A DNA stretch of 57,479 nucleotides from IMG/VR virus record IMGVR_UViG_3300017917_001904, positions 1 to 57,479 of that record. The stretch is one strand, 5' to 3'. The translations under genes and the position numbers were made by a program. Each line of letters opens with the position of its first letter. The first letter of the stretch is position 1. This DNA comes from a virus. Positions 9,849 through 53,481 of the stretch are shown here, piece after piece. The notes beneath the pieces are model-generated. The model was not told the origin of the DNA, did no database searches, and saw only the letters and a list, made by a program, of their open reading frames with translations.

Positions 9849-9882
9849 TTGTAACACAATTGTAATCTTAGCGACCTTAAAT
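9849..9882 (+). promoter_or_regulatory. Pho-box-like operator and promoter of pstS
   Basis: Two 7-bp direct repeats, TTGTAAC (9849-9855) and TTGTAAT (9860-9866), are separated by four bases, the same geometry as the PhoB box (CTGTCAT-N4-CTGTCAT). A candidate -10, TTAAAT (9877-9882), starts 10 bp after the box, as in PhoB-activated promoters that lack a good -35. I infer control by the host PhoB-PhoR system under phosphate starvation. Confidence 0.6.
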
Positions 9883-9918
9883 ATTTTTGTGCATTGCACA
9901 TAACATGGAGATTACAAA

Positions 9919-10926
9919 TTGAAAAAAATCATTGCATTGCTTGCAACAACATTGGCATTAAATGTGTCAGCAGCAGATATAACAGGAGCAGGGGCTACAT
10001 TTCCGTATCCTATCTATTCAAAATGGTCCGAGGCATATAAAGAAGCAACAGGGATTGGACTTAATTATCAATCAATTGGTAGCGGTGGCGGTATTAAACA
10101 AATCAAAAACAAGACTGTTGATTTTGGTGCCAGTGACATGCCATTGAAACCGGAGGAATTAGATCGAGAGGAACTGGTACAATTTCCAGTAATTATTGGC
10201 GGCGTAGTTCCTGTAGTCAATTTAGAAGGCGTGCAGCCAGGGCAATTAAAATTAACAGCAGAACTTGTTTCTGCTATTTTTTTAGGAAAAATAACTCGCT
10301 GGAACGATCCTTCGATTCAAGCAGTCAATGAAATCAAATTACCAGACTTACCTATTACTATAGTTCATCGAGCAGATGGTTCTGGTACTACATTTCTATT
10401 CACGGACTGGTTAAGCAAGACTAATCCAGAGTGGAAAGAAAAAGTCGGTTCAGGTACCGCACTAAAATGGCCTGTTGGAATTGGCGGTAAAGGTAATGAA
10501 GGTGTAACTGCAATGGTCCAAAGAACAAAAGGTGCAATTGGTTATATTGAATATGCTTATGCTAAACGAAATAAAATTCCTCATGTGCAATTAAAAAATC
10601 GTGATGGAAAGTGGGTGCAACCCGACGATGATACATTTAAAGCAGCAGCGGATAGTGCAGAATGGTCTGGCACAAACGGCATGGCTACAATTTTAACAGA
10701 TCAAAAAGGAGCAAAGGCTTGGCCTATTACAGGTGCTTCGTTTATTATAATGCATAAGAAACAAGCAGATCCTTTAACCGGAAGAGCAGTTTTGAAGTTC
10801 TTCAATTGGGCATTTAACAACGGAGCTAAGATGGCCGAAGATTTAGATTATGTACCTTTACCAAAAGATGTTGTGTCAAAAGTGCGTATTGAGTGGTCAA
10901 AATTTAATCTAGGAGAAATTAAGTAA
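9919..10926 (+). CDS. pstS: PstS phosphate-binding protein
   Basis: The 335-aa protein starts at TTG 9919, with ATGGAG upstream as ribosome site. It has a classic signal peptide (about residues 1-19, ending VSA-AD). All phosphate ligands known from E. coli PstS have counterparts: GAGATFPYP, SIGSGGG, DFGASD, and RADGSGTTF. The C-terminal GAIGYIEYAYAK and DLDYVPLPKDVV also match closely. PstS is the periplasmic subunit that delivers phosphate to the host PstCAB transporter, and no phage pstA, B or C is present. It is like host bacterial PstS over its whole length, so it was probably acquired from a proteobacterium. Phage pstS is known from marine cyanophages. Confidence 0.97.
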   Translation: MKKIIALLATTLALNVSAADITGAGATFPYPIYSKWSEAYKEATGIGLNYQSIGSGGGIKQIKNKTVDFGASDMPLKPEELDREELVQFPVIIGGVVPVVNLEGVQPGQLKLTAELVSAIFLGKITRWNDPSIQAVNEIKLPDLPITIVHRADGSGTTFLFTDWLSKTNPEWKEKVGSGTALKWPVGIGGKGNEGVTAMVQRTKGAIGYIEYAYAKRNKIPHVQLKNRDGKWVQPDDDTFKAAADSAEWSGTNGMATILTDQKGAKAWPITGASFIIMHKKQADPLTGRAVLKFFNWAFNNGAKMAEDLDYVPLPKDVVSKVRIEWSKFNLGEIK

Positions 10927-10932
10927 TGCTTG

Positions 10933-10962
10933 GGTGCTGCATAAATAAAATTATGCAGCGCC
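10933..10962 (+). promoter_or_regulatory. Strong hairpin overlapping a late promoter, after pstS
   Basis: A 12-bp stem (10933-10944 with 10951-10962, one G-T pair) closes a six-base loop. No T-run follows, so it is not a standard terminator; it may end or protect the pstS mRNA. The late-promoter core ATAAATA lies at 10941-10947, across the stem and loop, and would start a transcript near 10953. Confidence 0.6.
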
Positions 10963-11109
10963 AACGTTCTGTTGACGCCGGTTCATTAATCGACGCGGAG
11001 AGAAGCAACTCCTTTTTACTGTGTTTCAGTATAACGCCGACCGTACGTAGATTCCCTACAAGCATATAAACTAATTTTGAGATTGTAATTTCTCTACGAG
11101 TTTATTTTT
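10963..11109 (+). promoter_or_regulatory. Structured leader before tctA with terminator-like hairpin
   Basis: This 147-base stretch has no plausible reading frame but a chain of short inverted repeats: CAAC/GTTG, GGAG/CTCC, TACTG/CAGTA and GTAG/CTAC. The last is a nested hairpin of ATAAACT (11066-11072) pairing with AGTTTAT (11099-11105), with GAGA/TCTC inside. A T-run at 11105-11109 follows, six bases before the GTG start. This looks like a 5' leader ending in an attenuator; I could not match it to a known riboswitch class. Confidence 0.45.
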
Positions 11110-11115
11110 GGCAAC

Positions 11116-12414
11116 GTGATTACATTATTTTTTATAATACTAGCTGGTATCTTTGTAGGTATCCTAACAGGATTGCTTCCTGCACTTCCTGTATATATAG
11201 GACCTTTCCTACTCTATTACTTTCATAATGATTTGTCTTTAGAGTATCTTCTAATATTTTGGTTAGTAGTAGTTTCTGGCAGTCAATTCTTTGGCAGCGT
11301 AGCTACTATTACTACTAAGATACCGGGAGAGGAAAGTGCCTTAGTGTATCTCAAAGATCTAGATAATATTTCTATAGCAGAAAGAAGAGAACTACTATAC
11401 CAAACAGCAACAGGAAGTCTTATTGCTGGAGTAGTTAGTTCAATTTTTCTTTACATAGCATTACAAATAGTAAATTTAGAAAATTTACCATTTTTATCTA
11501 GTATAAAGTTTCAGCTGGCATTATACACAATTACTCTTGTTAGTCTATTATTTGCAAATAAAAATATATTATGGACAGCATTGTTAGTTTGTTTGGGCTT
11601 TTTAATGAGCCCACAAAACAATTATGCTATTAATCCATTATGGTTTGAAGTGAAATCCTTATTTCAAGGTTATACATTTTTTATGGTATTACTTGGAGTG
11701 ATGATAATCCCACAAGCATTTGCACATTGCAGATCTCAAGCAGAATATAATACAACGTTTGACAAAATAAATTCTAGTGCTCAAAATTTATGGCTGAGTA
11801 TTCGATCAACAGTTATTGGATTAATTGCAGGATTAGTACCTGGACCCAGTGCAACCACTGCATCGGTTATGGCATATAAAACTACTAAATCTTCTGTAGG
11901 GGATAAAATTGTTGCAGCCGAAACGGCAAACAACAGTTCAGTAATATCTTGTGCCTTACCTTTGTTAGCATTTGCACTACCAATTAATCAGAATACATTG
12001 ATCATGTCTAATTTAGCAGACATTAAAAGTTTATTCTTACCTAGTGCAATCTTTTCAAATAGTTTTATTGGATCGCTTACTATACTTGATATCACCGTAA
12101 TATCGTTAGTAGCAAGTTTATTCATTTACTATTATCTAAGCACACACTTAATAGATCTGTACGCACGGTTTATAATAAGCATTCATTCTAAGATGCAATT
12201 TATTTTAATTGGCATAATTGGTTTATTGATAGGAATAGATTTATATACAGCCGAAACTACCATAGTATCTTACTTGACTTTGTTAGGGTTTTTTACTATG
12301 CTAGGAACAATTTTAAAACTTAAGAACATAAGTCCGTTGCCTTTGTTATTCACAATAATTCTAGGTGATCGTCTTATATGGTTATATCTACAAGCTTATA
12401 AAATTTATTTTTAA
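11116..12414 (+). CDS. tctA: TctA-family tripartite tricarboxylate transporter permease
   Basis: This 432-aa, very hydrophobic protein has about 10-12 membrane segments. TctA landmarks are GILTGLLPALPVYIGPFL near residue 15, FGSVATITTKIPGEESA near residue 60 and GLVPGPSATTASVMAY near residue 240, matching the paired G-x-x-P-G repeats of the large permease. AAETANNSS follows. Such permeases import carboxylates (citrate, malate, others) across the inner membrane using a periplasmic TctC receptor and small TctB. The family is usually about 500 aa, so this is a compact form. The start is GTG with no clear ribosome site. A TctC-like gene follows 10 bases later. No TctB is evident. Confidence 0.82.
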   Translation: MITLFFIILAGIFVGILTGLLPALPVYIGPFLLYYFHNDLSLEYLLIFWLVVVSGSQFFGSVATITTKIPGEESALVYLKDLDNISIAERRELLYQTATGSLIAGVVSSIFLYIALQIVNLENLPFLSSIKFQLALYTITLVSLLFANKNILWTALLVCLGFLMSPQNNYAINPLWFEVKSLFQGYTFFMVLLGVMIIPQAFAHCRSQAEYNTTFDKINSSAQNLWLSIRSTVIGLIAGLVPGPSATTASVMAYKTTKSSVGDKIVAAETANNSSVISCALPLLAFALPINQNTLIMSNLADIKSLFLPSAIFSNSFIGSLTILDITVISLVASLFIYYYLSTHLIDLYARFIISIHSKMQFILIGIIGLLIGIDLYTAETTIVSYLTLLGFFTMLGTILKLKNISPLPLLFTIILGDRLIWLYLQAYKIYF

Positions 12415-12424
12415 GGAGAAAAAA

Positions 12425-13243
12425 ATGAAACTTGTAAATTCTTTATTCGCATCATTATTACTCTTAGCTACCACGGCCTACGCTGAACCTTTGATTATTA
12501 ATCCAAGCAACAAAGCAAGTCCGGCTACGGTAGTAGGGATGGCTTATAAAAATGCAGTTGGTGGTGATTGGTATCAAGCAAAAGATTGCGAAGATGCGCT
12601 CAATACCTTTAAAAATTCAAAAGACGCTGTACTAGTTTATAACAGCTCAATTGATTTCGCTGCTCGCAATAAAAATATTAATTGTTCGTTACAAGGAGTA
12701 ACTGCACAACAAGTTATTTTTGTTGGTTACACTTATATGAACATTTGCCGCAAACCTGGTTCAACCATTGATTTAAACACATCTAAATCAACATTAGGTA
12801 TGGCTAGCATGTATGCAGTTAGCAAACATGAAAAAAACTTTAACACAGCTGGCGCTAATGTAAAGTTTGTGCCATATGGTGGTAGTCAAGAAATTGTTAC
12901 TGCTGTTCGTGCAGGAGATATTGATTTGGGCTGGATTGGATCTGGAATTGCAAAAAAACAAGGTGCTAATTTAGATTGCCTATATAGCACTGATCCAATG
13001 GCTACAAACTATATTGGTAAAAAATTCAATTTACCAATTCCAAATTTTCAAATAACATATGTGGTTTATACGAATTCAACTAACCCTGCTGTTTTGGATC
13101 AATTAAGAGCAGCAGCTAAAAATAAAGAATTTGTTGATTTCTTGACTACGTCTGATACAATCACAAATTGGACAGCCAAACAAAAGGATGTAGATGATGT
13201 AAATCAATATGTAATTAAGATGTATTCAAATTGGGCAGACTGA
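12425..13243 (+). CDS. TctC-like periplasmic substrate-binding protein
   Basis: The start ATG at 12425 follows AAGGAG. The 272-aa product has a signal peptide (residues 1 to about 19, TAYA-EP). VKFVPYGGSQEIVTAVRAGDIDLGWIG near residue 150 resembles the TctC/BugT core motif VPYKGG...L-x-G-x-V-D. Receptors of this family bind a carboxylate and hand it to TctA. The protein is shorter than the usual 300-320 aa and carries four cysteines in the mature part (near residues 45, 68, 101 and 180), which could form disulfides in the periplasm; this is unusual for the family. Its place directly after tctA strongly supports the pairing. Confidence 0.7.
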   Translation: MKLVNSLFASLLLLATTAYAEPLIINPSNKASPATVVGMAYKNAVGGDWYQAKDCEDALNTFKNSKDAVLVYNSSIDFAARNKNINCSLQGVTAQQVIFVGYTYMNICRKPGSTIDLNTSKSTLGMASMYAVSKHEKNFNTAGANVKFVPYGGSQEIVTAVRAGDIDLGWIGSGIAKKQGANLDCLYSTDPMATNYIGKKFNLPIPNFQITYVVYTNSTNPAVLDQLRAAAKNKEFVDFLTTSDTITNWTAKQKDVDDVNQYVIKMYSNWAD

Positions 13244-13244
13244 T

Positions 13245-13274
13245 TTGACAAAGGTGTTTTAAAAGTAGTATAAT
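13245..13274 (+). promoter_or_regulatory. Sigma-70 promoter of the outer-membrane barrel gene
   Basis: TTGACA (13245-13250), an 18-bp spacer and TATAAT (13269-13274) start just after the tctC-like stop. An AAGGAG ribosome site lies before ATG 13296. The barrel gene can thus be expressed on its own. Confidence 0.8.
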
Positions 13275-13295
13275 TTTTATTCAAGGAGAAAAAAC

Positions 13296-13862
13296 ATGCA
13301 ATTAGCAAAAATTTTAGCAGTGGCAACACTAATGATAGCAGGTCTGGCACAGGCCGAAACTAAAGGCTTTGTTCGTTATGAACTTTATAGCGAAGAAAAT
13401 GTAGCAACTAAAGCCGACAATATAGCATATGGAGTCGTTCCGGGCGTAGTCATCGACAAAACTTGGGAACTATCGGCACAGTTCCGTACTAGCCAAGCGG
13501 AAGTTGGTAATGGTTCAATCACCAATGGTGTTGAAGCTCGAGTAACACGACTATTCAGCGTTGGGTCATTGACTCCATATATCAGCTTACGTGCTGGTCA
13601 GATTATTAAATCTGCTGAAGACTTTTCGCAATATAACGTTGTGTTAGGTACTAAGTTTCCGTTAATGGGTGCATTGTCGGGTGATTTCAGTGTGCGCTAT
13701 CGTAACGCATTTGAATCCGGTCATGACTATCAAACTACTCGTCCTGCTCTAGGACTAAACTATGCACTAACTAAACAAGATTCAGTTGGTGTTCGCTATG
13801 CACGTAGTTATGGTGATGACGAAAAGAATCAATGGCGCATGACTTATACACGTAGTTTCTAA
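13296..13862 (+). CDS. Outer-membrane beta-barrel protein
   Basis: The 188-aa protein has a signal peptide (residues 1-20, cut after GLAQA). Alternating hydrophobic strands follow, such as GFVRYELYSEE, TPYISLRAGQI, DFSVRYRNAF and SVGVRYARSYG. It ends in the aromatic-terminated strand RMTYTRSF, the C-terminal Phe being the recognition signal for the BAM assembly machinery. An eight-stranded barrel is likely. It could be a small porin letting substrate reach the TctC-like receptor, or an outer-membrane protein that masks receptors against superinfection. It has its own sigma-70 promoter and a strong terminator, so it is probably made at high level. Confidence 0.8.
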   Translation: MQLAKILAVATLMIAGLAQAETKGFVRYELYSEENVATKADNIAYGVVPGVVIDKTWELSAQFRTSQAEVGNGSITNGVEARVTRLFSVGSLTPYISLRAGQIIKSAEDFSQYNVVLGTKFPLMGALSGDFSVRYRNAFESGHDYQTTRPALGLNYALTKQDSVGVRYARSYGDDEKNQWRMTYTRSF

Positions 13863-13880
13863 TTTAGAATTAGAAAAATC

Positions 13881-13904
13881 AAAGGGCCTTAGGGCCCTTT
13901 TTTT
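13881..13904 (+). terminator. Rho-independent terminator
   Basis: AAAGGGCC pairs with GGCCCTTT around a TTAG loop, followed by a run of T. It closes the barrel gene and the uptake module. Confidence 0.9.
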
Positions 13905-25570: not shown

Positions 25571-26371
25571 ATGAAAATTAAATTGGCATTAGTGGGAATT
25601 GGAGCAGTACTGGTACTGTTAGCATCGGGTTGTACTCGAATCGAAACCGGCGAAGTTGGCGTTCGCATTGGATTCGATAAACAAATTCAACAAGGAGAAC
25701 TGCTACCGGGTAGCTTTAACCAAACACTAATTGGTGATGTGCTTACATTCCCGATTAAGGACGTTAATGTTACTATCAATGACATGACTCCGCTAGCCAA
25801 AGACAATAGCACAATGAAAGATTTTGATGCTGTTATTATCTATAACATTAACCAAGGACAAGTTAGTGAGCTGTATAGCCAAAAGAGTAAAGCCTTCCAT
25901 GCCGAAAACAGAGGCGACACTTATTTGATGTATAACTACATTGTTCAAACTGCTCGTAATGCAGTATATAAGGCCGCTCGTGAATACGAAGCATTGGACA
26001 TGAATGATAATCGTGCCGCAATTGAACAAAAGGTCCGTGAAACAATTCAGCGTACCCTAGCCGATGAAAAACTAGATGGTGCTATTACTATCAACCAGGT
26101 CCTGGTTCGTAATATTGTACCAGCCGATAGTGTAGTTGAGTCTGCTAATGCATTGGTTCGTGCTAAAAACGAATTTAAGCAGAAAGAAGTTGAAGTTAAA
26201 ACTGCCGAAGCTGAAGCTCGTCGTATGCAGGCGTTGAGTAATCAATCGTCAAGTTCTATTGCTTACATGAACGCACAGGCTGCACTTAATATCTCAGAAG
26301 GTATTAAGAACGGTAAGGTCCAAACTATTATTGTTCCTAGCAATATGACTGGTTTGATGATTAACAAGTAA
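25571..26371 (+). CDS. SPFH/Band 7 (prohibitin-like) lipoprotein
   Basis: The protein is 266 aa. Residues 1-21 form a lipoprotein signal ending LLASGC, so Cys is probably lipidated. The SPFH core follows (RIETGEVGVRIGFDKQIQQG near residue 23, then TINDMTPLAKDNSTMKDFDA, then a Y-N-x-N domain). A coiled-coil Ala-Glu-Lys stretch (KQKEVEVKTAEAEARRMQAL, near residue 205) lies near the end. SPFH proteins form membrane rings that regulate proteases such as FtsH. A phage copy could protect an inner-membrane phage complex or affect superinfection. AAAGGAAAC precedes the ATG, and a terminator follows 45 bases after the stop. Confidence 0.87.
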   Translation: MKIKLALVGIGAVLVLLASGCTRIETGEVGVRIGFDKQIQQGELLPGSFNQTLIGDVLTFPIKDVNVTINDMTPLAKDNSTMKDFDAVIIYNINQGQVSELYSQKSKAFHAENRGDTYLMYNYIVQTARNAVYKAAREYEALDMNDNRAAIEQKVRETIQRTLADEKLDGAITINQVLVRNIVPADSVVESANALVRAKNEFKQKEVEVKTAEAEARRMQALSNQSSSSIAYMNAQAALNISEGIKNGKVQTIIVPSNMTGLMINK

Positions 26372-41377: not shown

Positions 41378-42082
41378 ATGCTTACAATTATCTCGGCGTT
41401 AGTACTGACGCACATTACTATTGCCTGCGTTACTCTTTATCTACATCGCAGTCAAGCTCACAGAGCCGTAGAATTTCATCCTGTGGTATCGCATTTTATG
41501 CGTTTTTGGTTATGGCTCACTACTGGAATGGTTACTCGACAATGGGTAGCCATACATCGCAAGCATCACAGGTTCTGCGAGCAGCCGGACGATCCGCACA
41601 GCCCAAGACAAGTAGGCCTGTGGAGAGTGGTATTTGGAGGAGCATTGTTATATCATGAGGCGAGCAAAGATAAAGAAATGGTTCATGCTTACGGTGTTGG
41701 CACTCCTGATGATTGGATCGAGCGCCAGTTATACACTCCTCACAGCAGACTTGGCATTAGCATTTGCCTTTTGCTCAACCTCGTCATCTTTGGTTGGGTG
41801 GGTGCCATAATATGGTTAGTTCAAATGTTATGGATTCCATTCTGGGCAGCAGGTGTCATTAACGGTATAGGGCATTGGTGGGGATATCGTAATGGCGACA
41901 GTAGAGATACAAGTACAAACATCTCGCCCTGGGGTATCATTATCGGCGGAGAAGAATTGCATAACAACCATCATCTTAATCCCGCAAGCCCACGATTAAG
42001 CCGACGTTGGTTTGAATTTGATATTGGCTGGTTTTATATCAGAGTATTACAATCATTACGTTTGGCAACTGTTAAAATTTAG
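41378..42082 (+). CDS. Fatty-acid (acyl-lipid/acyl-CoA) desaturase
   Basis: This 234-aa membrane di-iron enzyme has all three histidine boxes: HRSQAH (residues 23-28), HRKHH (60-64) and HNNHH near 197. Two pairs of hydrophobic segments surround them. The family introduces a cis double bond, usually Delta-9, into acyl chains, raising membrane fluidity. It is shorter than bacterial Delta-9 desaturases (about 300 aa) but complete in motifs. Phage desaturases are known from marine T4-like phages. It lies between fibre genes and replication genes with no visible promoter of its own. Confidence 0.92.
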   Translation: MLTIISALVLTHITIACVTLYLHRSQAHRAVEFHPVVSHFMRFWLWLTTGMVTRQWVAIHRKHHRFCEQPDDPHSPRQVGLWRVVFGGALLYHEASKDKEMVHAYGVGTPDDWIERQLYTPHSRLGISICLLLNLVIFGWVGAIIWLVQMLWIPFWAAGVINGIGHWWGYRNGDSRDTSTNISPWGIIIGGEELHNNHHLNPASPRLSRRWFEFDIGWFYIRVLQSLRLATVKI

Positions 42083-51054: not shown

Positions 51055-51435
51055 ATGGCTTACTCAGGTCAAGTCTTGGATCACTATGAAAATCCAAGAA
51101 ACGTTGGTAAATTAGATAAGAATGATCCTACTGTGGGTACAGGATTAGTCGGAGCACCTGCATGCGGCGATGTATTACAACTGCAAATAAAGGTAGAGGA
51201 CAATGTCATTACCGATGCAAAATTTAAAACATATGGATGTGGTTCGGCGATTGCAAGCTCGTCGCTTGTTTCGGAATGGGTTAAGGGAAAAACTCTTGAA
51301 GAAGCAGGTGAAATTAAGAACACGCAGATTGCGGAAGAGCTCGCACTACCTCCAGTTAAAATACACTGTTCAATTTTAGCAGAAGATGCTATTAAGGCTG
51401 CATTAGCAGATTACAAAAATAAACAAAATGCTTAA
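51055..51435 (+). CDS. iscU: IscU Fe-S cluster scaffold
   Basis: The 126-aa protein aligns over its whole length with proteobacterial IscU. It has GAPACGD with C37 and D39, TYGCGSAIASSSLVSEWVKG with C62, LPPVK (the HscA recognition site) and IHCSILAEDAIKAAL with C105. All ligands for assembling a 2Fe-2S or 4Fe-4S cluster are present. Host IscS, HscA and HscB are required. The match to bacterial IscU is closer than for most genes here, suggesting recent acquisition. It begins an operon with a radical SAM gene and iscA, each overlapping the next. Confidence 0.96.
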   Translation: MAYSGQVLDHYENPRNVGKLDKNDPTVGTGLVGAPACGDVLQLQIKVEDNVITDAKFKTYGCGSAIASSSLVSEWVKGKTLEEAGEIKNTQIAEELALPPVKIHCSILAEDAIKAALADYKNKQNA

Positions 51436-53158
51436 AGTCCTGTTCTATCATGCCAATGATTTTCAAGAAGGTAGCAGTCATAATCTTTTATTTTTAGGTG
51501 TTGCGGCATTATATTTGAAAACATGGTTAGAGCAACACCGTCCAGACACAGCTAGTAAAATTAACTGGTGTGTTCCGCAACAACAAAAACTTACTGATTC
51601 TGAACTAATTGATTTACTAGAAAAAGAAAAACCAGATCTATTTTGTAGTAGTCATTACATATGGAATCATAGTTTTATGCGTGATCAATTAAATAGAATC
51701 AAAAATAAGGTATCAAAGGATATAGTGTTTGTTGCTGGTGGCCCTAGCATTGACGTTAATATTGATTCTGATTTTTTTAATAAGAATTCCTTTGCAGATT
51801 ACGCTATATTCGGAGCAGGCGAAGTTGCATTTGCCGACGTTGCTGATAGTTTGCTAACTAATAAAAAATTAATCGCATTTAATACTTCTAATATAGCTTG
51901 GGTTGATAAACAAAAAAATAAAACTGTTCTAGCTGATTTTAAATATGTTCCTCAATTATCAAGAAGTCCTTATACTAGTAACGAAGATCTATTTTCTAAA
52001 ATGGTAAAAAAGGAACAAGATAAGGGGATTACGGTTGTAATTCCGTATGATCTAACCAGGGGATGTCCATATAGCTGTACTTTTTGCGATTGGAACAGCG
52101 GTCTGACTAATAAAACCACTAGACGAAAAAATAGTTATAAAGATGAAATTGATTTATTTCAAAAATTAAATATTAAAGGAATTTACCTGTCAGACGCCAA
52201 TGTAGGACAATATCAAGAAGACATTGACATGATTGAATATATGGGAAACAAAAACATATATGAAAATGCTGGATTTAAAATAGATGGCAACTTTAGTAAG
52301 TTACGAAAAGAGAATAATTTAAAGATTTATCATTTATTAGCAAAAGGAAATTTAATTACTGATTATGCTGGATTCACAATATCGGTTCAAGATATAAACA
52401 AAACAGTATTAGACAATATTGATAGACCAGATGTCGGTTGGGATGTACATTTGTCGATGATTAAAGAATTAAAACAAAGTTATCCTAAGATTAGTTCAAA
52501 AGTACAGTTAATACAAGGCTTACCCGGACAAACAGTTGAATCATGGAGAGAAACTCTTAGAGAAATTAGTAAAAATGATTTAATGCTACAAATTTTTATA
52601 AGTGAGCTTTTACCGGCTAGCCCTGCGGCAAGAGATAAAAACTATCAAGAAAAATTTAAATTTACCTATACTACAAGTACAAGATTTAACGGAGAAGAAT
52701 ATTTTCAAGCTACCTTTCCAGAATCGTGCGTAAGCTTTACAAAAAAAGATTTTGTTAAGATGACAGTTCTTTCGCACATTTATGCAACGCTAACACAATT
52801 TAGACAACAATCAATAGCTTTCTTTGACTTAGAAAAAGTAGTCGATGACATCTTAGTGTCACCAATTGGCAAAGCTATGGAAACAAATTTATACAACAAT
52901 TGGGTCAATCATAATAAATTTTATTTTACAATTGGTATTAATGGACAAGAAATGTCGGAAAATGATAAACCCATTAGTGCTTGTTTTATTTTTAATTCCT
53001 CTTTGCTTTGGGAGCGTAGCCTTAAAATTTTAACTTTAATTGCTAAAAATCTTACTCCAGGTGTTATGACCCCAGGGGAGTTTATTAAAAACAGTATCAC
53101 GTACGGTAAATTACCGGGTGTGAAAATTATCAAAGATTTAAAAGGATTTGTCCAATGA
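51428..53158 (+). CDS. B12-binding-type radical SAM protein
   Basis: The 576-aa protein has an N-terminal Rossmann-like region (about residues 1-150, with DLFCSSHYIWN and IVFVAGGPSIDV) that resembles cobalamin-binding domains but lacks the D-x-H-x-x-G motif, so base-off B12 ligation is not shown. The radical SAM core has GCPYSCTFCDWNSG with C213, C217 and C220. IYLSDANVGQYQEDIDMIEY and VQLIQGLPGQTVESW follow, as in class B radical SAM methyltransferases. The substrate is unknown. It lies between iscU and iscA with overlaps on both sides, suggesting those genes mature its 4Fe-4S cluster. Confidence 0.85.
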   Translation: MLKVLFYHANDFQEGSSHNLLFLGVAALYLKTWLEQHRPDTASKINWCVPQQQKLTDSELIDLLEKEKPDLFCSSHYIWNHSFMRDQLNRIKNKVSKDIVFVAGGPSIDVNIDSDFFNKNSFADYAIFGAGEVAFADVADSLLTNKKLIAFNTSNIAWVDKQKNKTVLADFKYVPQLSRSPYTSNEDLFSKMVKKEQDKGITVVIPYDLTRGCPYSCTFCDWNSGLTNKTTRRKNSYKDEIDLFQKLNIKGIYLSDANVGQYQEDIDMIEYMGNKNIYENAGFKIDGNFSKLRKENNLKIYHLLAKGNLITDYAGFTISVQDINKTVLDNIDRPDVGWDVHLSMIKELKQSYPKISSKVQLIQGLPGQTVESWRETLREISKNDLMLQIFISELLPASPAARDKNYQEKFKFTYTTSTRFNGEEYFQATFPESCVSFTKKDFVKMTVLSHIYATLTQFRQQSIAFFDLEKVVDDILVSPIGKAMETNLYNNWVNHNKFYFTIGINGQEMSENDKPISACFIFNSSLLWERSLKILTLIAKNLTPGVMTPGEFIKNSITYGKLPGVKIIKDLKGFVQ

Positions 53159-53481
53159 TATCTTTAACAGAAATTGCAGCACGTAAAGTACAACAGCATC
53201 TAACTAAACGTGGTCGTGGAGTTGGTATTATGATCGGTGTTCGTACTACCGGTTGTTCGGGACTTGCTTATAAATTAGAGTACGTCGATCACCCGCCTGT
53301 AACCAGAGACTGGATGAGTTATACCAGTAACGGTATTAAAATTTATGTAAATGGTAAAGATTTGCCTTATGTTAATGGACTTACAATGGATTATAAGCGC
53401 CAGGGTCTTAACGAAGGTTTCGAATTTATTAACCCAAATGAACGTGACCGTTGCGGTTGCGGCGAAAGTTTTCGAGTTTAA
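53155..53481 (+). CDS. iscA: IscA-type Fe-S carrier
   Basis: The 108-aa A-type carrier has VRTTGCSGLAYKLEY with C34 and a C-terminal DRCGCGESF with C100 and C102, the three conserved ligands. The central GIKIYVNGKDLPYVNGLTMD matches the family. It would pass Fe-S clusters from IscU to target enzymes. It overlaps the radical SAM gene by four bases and so is co-translated with it. IscA-like proteins alone are seen in other phages; the combination with IscU and an embedded radical SAM enzyme is less usual. Confidence 0.95.
   Translation: MISLTEIAARKVQQHLTKRGRGVGIMIGVRTTGCSGLAYKLEYVDHPPVTRDWMSYTSNGIKIYVNGKDLPYVNGLTMDYKRQGLNEGFEFINPNERDRCGCGESFRV

Follow-up and report, generated by a model that had tools for sequence, protein, structure and literature searches.

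A phage phosphate-receptor gene beside a probable RNA-led, TctB-less importer of the TctA-TctC type

The window, meaning the whole stretch of DNA analysed here, is the 57,479-bp IMG/VR virus record IMGVR_UViG_3300017917_001904. We take the record to be viral because it carries matches to T4-type replication genes (UvsW helicase, DnaB-like helicase and primase) and is an IMG/VR entry; its source is a virus of aquatic bacteria, a T4-like phage. Within it, pstS, tctA, a tctC-type receptor gene and a barrel gene follow one another (Table 1). An earlier sequence-only reading had joined these genes in a single module for phosphate and carboxylate. All four open reading frames (ORFs) were located where it had placed them, but they form two units with different control instead: a pstS that would answer to PhoB and, beside it, a tctA-tctC-barrel importer without TctB that is led by a structured RNA. 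We regard this account as reasonably probable.

We distinguish two units, rather than one operon, because a separate PHO-box-like site precedes pstS, which is placed elsewhere in a related 137-kb contig (L001/L004), and because tctA, receptor and barrel genes have a common leader and terminator. In that relative the tctA/receptor/barrel order is conserved (77/70/65% amino-acid identity), whilst pstS is relocated behind the barrel gene, with a Porin_O_P (OprP/OprO) gene after it. The three importer genes stay together in both phages and end at a terminator-like hairpin, the hairpin of L004 being a different one. Since the same order recurs, the grouping goes beyond chance. Between L004 and the window, dN is 0.16-0.27 for the three genes and dS is ~2-3 or saturated, so that, as judged from these rates, the genes are under purifying selection.

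In the mechanism that we propose, host PhoB would probably switch on pstS at the PHO-box-like site, by analogy with E. coli, and the phage PstS would act as an extra phosphate receptor for the host's own PstABC. The tctA-tctC-barrel genes would encode an importer of the tripartite tricarboxylate transporter (TTT) type, working without TctB, for what is probably a small organic anion. The solute would cross the outer membrane through the barrel and be caught by the TctC-type receptor, and TctA would move it by means of an ion gradient. The importer mRNA would start with, or pass through, the ~123-nt folded RNA, which most likely acts in cis on expression of the gene that follows, either in the manner of a riboswitch or by binding a protein.

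Table 1. Features of the two units and their positions in the window
Feature	Position	Strand	Remarks
PHO-box-like site TTGTAAC-ACAA-TTGTAAT (TTGTAACACAATTGTAAT)	9849..9866	+	upstream of pstS
pstS, phosphate-binding protein, 335 aa, TTG start	9919..10926	+	curated profiles above cut-off
Structured RNA leader, ~123 nt, new family	10942..11064	+	ahead of tctA
P0 closing stem	10955-10956 with 11062-11063	+	GC/GC to GU/AC in 4/10 copies
P1 hairpin	10962-10965 with 10971-10974	+	3/4 pairs change on both sides
P2 hairpin	11000-11003 with 11008-11011	+	4/4 pairs covary across copies
P3 hairpin	11017-11021 with 11027-11031	+	4/5 pairs covary
P4 hairpin	11047-11050 with 11056-11059	+	4/4 pairs covary
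tctA, inner-membrane permease, phage-type clade, 432 aa, GTG start	11116..12414	+	PF01970
tctC-type periplasmic receptor, 272 aa, signal peptide by eye	12425..13243	+	predicted TctC/Bug fold
Probable outer-membrane beta-barrel, 188 aa, signal peptide by eye	13296..13862	+	weak barrel matches
Intrinsic terminator-like inverted repeat + T run (AAAGGGCCTTAGGGCCCTTTTTTT)	13881..13904	+	ends tctA-tctC-barrel unit; read from sequence

A covarying RNA ahead of uptake genes

The RNA leader had been missed by the sequence-only reading. It opens with UAAAUA and continues through GCARCGCC, P1, GACGYCGG and, further on, GACGC, P2, P3, AACGCCnnCCGUA, P4 and AGC. It is 94% identical to its counterpart in L004 although the flanking genes are synonymously saturated, and it folds better than shuffled sequences (z -3.26). 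A sequence profile placed further copies ahead of dctP-tctA-tctC (L005) and of a porin gene (L123). With a covariance model first built from four copies, more were found at E-values of 4.9e-9 to 4.2e-5, all at TctA genes, either between tctA and tctC (L116, L119, L120, L122, L123) or, in L016, upstream of a second tctA. Ten distinct copies reached E<1e-4. In their alignment pairing holds in 97% of pair cells, and both partners vary in 16/19 pairs; double changes occur in 47 cells, compared with 13.7±3.2 after shuffling.

We also searched with a DNA pattern taken from the 5' third of the RNA, which holds no gene information and from which P2-P4 are absent. It matched at least 120 viral stretches, against a rough chance estimate of ~4, and 80 loci were kept. 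Every one of the 80 has a full-length match to the model (83 hits, E 1e-18 to 3e-5). Across 79 distinct sequences 96.9% of cells pair, with 415 double changes vs 110±16.5 in shuffled alignments and 31-54% pairing in slid controls; this large alignment was fitted to the model, which favours pairing, but hairpins P2-P4 were not used in choosing the loci. P0 is paired in 99.4% of cells in this set and P1 in 94% (100% in the ten copies). In the window, the innermost pair of P2 is unformed, and the stem may instead pair in a register a few bases away. The fold of the RNA is thus established by covariation. A shorter, 15-base pattern was discarded, its matches being mostly due to chance.

None of the 4,227 Rfam families matched the window element at E<=5, and none overlapped the RNA copies in eight other loci at E<=0.5. 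Like riboswitches and other structured leaders, this RNA has several covarying hairpins and a conserved core that is unpaired, and it precedes functionally related genes, mostly with 20-70 nt between it and the start codon; it often touches or overlaps the stop codon of the preceding gene. It differs from the known ones in having no Rfam match and in lying, in phages, ahead of receptors of the TTT and TRAP (tripartite ATP-independent periplasmic) types, porins and related genes. By Pfam, the next genes, 82 in all, include TctC (15), DctP (14), TctA (4), SBP_bac_8 (3) and porin (3), as well as radical SAM (5), DUF2061 (4), TauD (3), desaturase (2) and halogenase (1). When genes were grouped by sequence, TctC, DctP, TctA and porin groups accounted for 43/78 next genes (55%) vs 41/744 other ORFs of the same loci (5.5%), an odds ratio of 21 with p 4e-27, although this p is too small because the loci are partly dependent and the next genes themselves served to define the groups.

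A tentative extension, to which we give somewhat less than even weight, is that many aquatic phages have one uptake regulon in common (TctC, DctP, TctA, porins, linked PP-loop enzymes, desaturases and others) under a single, previously unknown metabolite-sensing RNA. If true, such phages would gauge how well supplied the infected cell is with nutrients and adjust their TctB-less importers to it. A structured RNA common to their uptake genes would be a means of regulation used across phages, and it offers a direct way to learn what these phages sense and import.

The RNA could instead have no regulatory role towards the next gene and be an element for intercistronic processing or transcript stability, or a leader joined to a late promoter, that merely lies within gene cassettes moving together. 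The late promoter of phage T4 is TATAAATA; the RNA copies begin with the similar UAAAUA, often overlapping the preceding stop codon, and some copies precede radical SAM, TauD or DUF2061 genes. However, TATAAATA is not enriched in the window (4 occurrences vs 9.5 expected), so that the resemblance no more than hints at a late promoter at the leader. The long conserved unpaired core (GCARCGCC, GACGYCGG, AACGCCnnCCGU) and the strong enrichment ahead of receptor genes both fit specific sensing better than general processing, and we consider this alternative rather unlikely.

The RNA search of 1.1 Mb of cellular TctA loci gave no match at E<=1, and 0/200 Burkholderiales genomes had a copy under strict filters that left few candidates to be scored. 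A permuted, betaproteobacterial-type transfer-messenger RNA occurs on two viral contigs that also carry the leader (L276:7699-8108 and L303:2260-2666); because of its type, Betaproteobacteria are likely hosts of those two phages, a deduction that we do not extend to the window.

Other genes of the phage loci were also noted. DctP (TRAP receptor) homologues at L005:8981-9949, L006:7299-8237 and L011:12235-13224, and those following 14 RNA copies, are probably cytoplasmic because neither inspection by eye nor hydrophobicity gave a signal peptide. A recurrent protein of 350-430 aa, which has a PP-loop-like motif (SGGxDS) but matches no Pfam family above cut-off, accompanies phage TctA, TctC or DctP genes (L005:7647-8831, L006:3845-5074, L014:13870-15126, L016:17465-18760) and is encoded by 9 genes after the RNA; it is possibly an ATP-dependent enzyme for the imported solute. 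The gene directly after one copy (L309:384-2021) looks by eye like a tryptophan halogenase, and 1/82 next genes matches PF04820.

Permease, receptor and barrel

The profile search upheld the assignment of the 432-aa protein to TctA. It matches PF01970 with 131.6 bits (4e-38; cut-off 28.9) over nearly the whole profile (2-422 of 423), and the repeat G-Hy3-G-Hy3-G-Hy2-P, described for TctA in PMC5812351, is mostly retained in its TM1 and TM7 (GIFVGILTGLLPALP and IGLIAGLVPGP).

For the receptor, the earlier identification held by fold and failed by sequence profiles: the 272-aa protein has no TctC match in Pfam (PF03401), PHROGs or NCBIfam, so profiles were set aside as proof of identity and the fold was needed. 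An AlphaFold2 model from 12 aligned sequences has a mean predicted local distance difference test (pLDDT) score of 90. In a structure search the top 11 entries were all TctC/Bug proteins, among them TphC, BugD and MatC (Z 17.2-20.7, best Bug27), and the best non-TctC entry reached 11.6. On this modelled fold the protein is a TctC-type receptor. Cys 55, 87, 108 and 185 are invariant across the 12 sequences.

The 188-aa protein, which had been called an outer-membrane barrel, is probably a small barrel of that kind as judged from its sequence matches, and no barrel family profile rises above its cut-off: KdgM gives 19.5 bits (8e-4; cut-off 22), TonB-barrel 1.3e-3 and OMP_b-brl 12.1 bits (cut-off 28.7). 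Its L001 homologue gives TonB-barrel at 7e-5 and OMP_b-brl at 3e-4. A barrel as third gene of an RNA-led unit agrees with the finding, in other phages, of a porin gene immediately behind an RNA copy.

As the sequence-only reading had noted, no TctB is visible. A PF07331 search found none in the 57-kb record nor in the other records searched that carry this type of TctA, with the proviso that the records are fragments and TctB is poorly conserved. Its remote TctB candidate, an 81-aa membrane protein, had to be given up: it has no TctB match, lies beyond the terminator, and keeps its BPL_N/GATase neighbour in both phages when other genes move. The virus records searched yielded a single TctB match (64 bits), at G015:117009-117404, on a 182-kb record and tens of kb from the TctA (type B, see below) of that record.

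A family of phage TctA-TctC pairs and its interpretation

TctA genes of the window type (type A) were found in 10 other contig records by scanning viral contigs, with the receptor gene directly after tctA in all; the records are not all independent phages, since L006 and L008 carry matching proteins. Scanning also gave 253 loci of a second type (type B), with a ~480-aa TctA and a 350-aa TctC. In the 80 of these in which pairing was examined, TctC accompanies TctA in 78, nearly always immediately after it and mostly with an overlap of a few nucleotides. PhoH, clamp-loader and T4-lysozyme-like genes, annotated by eye, recur around type-B loci, and the RNA model found no match below E 0.18 in 581 kb of them. 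One 28-kb phage contig (L014) carries three different TctA-TctC pairs. In 73/91 clustered type-B loci (L124-L203) there is a further gene whose product has a P-loop-like motif, GAPGSRWSG, and by eye resembles sulfotransferases or kinases.

In a pattern scan of 84,980 cellular species genomes there was one close relative of the window TctA (44% identity), in a TctA-receptor pair at L019:5153-7303 on a gammaproteobacterial metagenome-assembled contig, where it adjoins a proton-pyrophosphatase-like gene. Other cellular relatives are 21-29% identical, with one 61-residue piece at 39%; besides L019, the best scored 110 bits vs 565. In a tree made by a quick method L019 is nested inside the phage clade, and phage TctA proteins fall into at least two separate groups. 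L019 is therefore likely, on tree position, to represent a phage-to-host transfer.

Among 50,697 GenBank phage records there was no close relative of TctA and no match to either receptor; the TctA matches found are 22-35% identical, and several are in records resembling bacterial DNA. The literature that we found mentions such genes in passing, as tctA in SUP05 viral contigs (PMC4164917) and as tricarboxylate-transport genes in an oxygen-minimum-zone phage island (PMC8115048). These resemble the present case in having tctA or tricarboxylate-transport genes on phage contigs, but the passages concerned describe no receptor pairing, family or leader. The impression that this is not an established phage system accordingly looks right, and the importer seems to belong to a large family, carried by viruses, that had not been described before. 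Discussion of phage auxiliary genes usually treats them as single host enzymes; in the present case receptor and permease pairs form phage-type clades, with hundreds of uncultured phage loci.

A conventional TTT importer of citrate or other tricarboxylates, recently captured from a host, would feed the infected cell with carbon, as the sequence-only reading had suggested. Where studied, TctA and TctC families are carboxylate importers (PMC5812351), and the receptor has the TctC fold. As in bacterial TctCBA systems (TC 2.A.80), a TctA-family permease and a periplasmic receptor of Bug/TctC fold are encoded by adjacent genes. Unlike them, the window has no TctB, places A before C, carries a TctA of a phage-type clade and an RNA leader, and its receptor has neither the signature motif of the family nor a Pfam TctC match. 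The distance of the cellular relatives, and the nesting of L019 inside the phage clade, argue against recent capture, and we think this reading improbable. Still less probable is that TctA and the receptor, instead of feeding the cell, modify its envelope while it is infected, whether to let DNA pass, to exclude superinfection or for export. Two naturally competent archaea need a TctA-like protein for DNA uptake, and so for natural transformation (PMC10133366), and that protein is not known for carboxylates. But the archaeal proteins have no clear TctC partner, whereas here a receptor of ligand-binding fold is never missing, and copies of the RNA also lie ahead of genes for DctP-like and other solute-binding proteins and for porins.

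Some observations also weigh against the RNA-led, TctB-less importer that we prefer. The receptor reads NPSNKASPA in the loop where the TctC signature PFxAGGxxD would stand, and for this reason its ligand cannot be named. The TctA model is moderate (pLDDT 74) and has no clear fold match, the best Foldseek E-value being 0.14 and VIA giving the best Z of 10 at a root-mean-square deviation of 12.7 A. No RNA copy stands beside this tctA in most of the other type-A phages (L006, L007, L009, L010, L011 and L014), and 35/78 genes after the RNA are outside the transport groups. Finally, both membrane subunits are essential in a TTT system tested in Comamonas (PMC5812351), so a pair without TctB may need a host TctB or act otherwise.

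pstS and neighbouring host-like genes

The identification of PstS was borne out by NF008171 (416 bits, 1.1e-124; cut-off 339) and by TIGR00975 (6.4e-122, also above cut-off), and the protein matches phrog_5385 at 6.3e-70. It carries GAGATFP, SGGGIKQI, DFGASD and RADGSGTT, which we take to be the phosphate-site residues of PstS. The two-half-site pattern of the PHO-box-like site has a single match in the whole window, against an average of 0.18 in shuffles. L004 likewise has a single match, a near copy (TTGTAACACGCTTGTAAT) upstream of its relocated pstS. We assume that the site functions like the PHO box of E. coli.

Relatives of the protein occur in 90 phage records, mostly of marine cyanophages and all below 60% identity. 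With the auxiliary phosphate-receptor gene of cyanophages the window pstS has the family phrog_5385 in common; it differs in encoding an E. coli-type PstS (NF008171) less than 60% identical to the phage copies on record, and in that the relative L001 has an OprP/OprO-type porin gene (Porin_O_P 6e-51) after pstS. At L001:10767-13298 pstS and this phosphate-selective porin gene lie behind a PHO-box-like site, and from their sequences the two may form a phage phosphate route across outer membrane and periplasm.

Other host-like genes of the window lie at 25571-26371, 41378-42082 and 51055-53481. They include a fatty-acid desaturase (1.2e-15) and, by eye, genes for an SPFH-like lipoprotein and for IscU-like, radical-SAM-like and IscA-like proteins.

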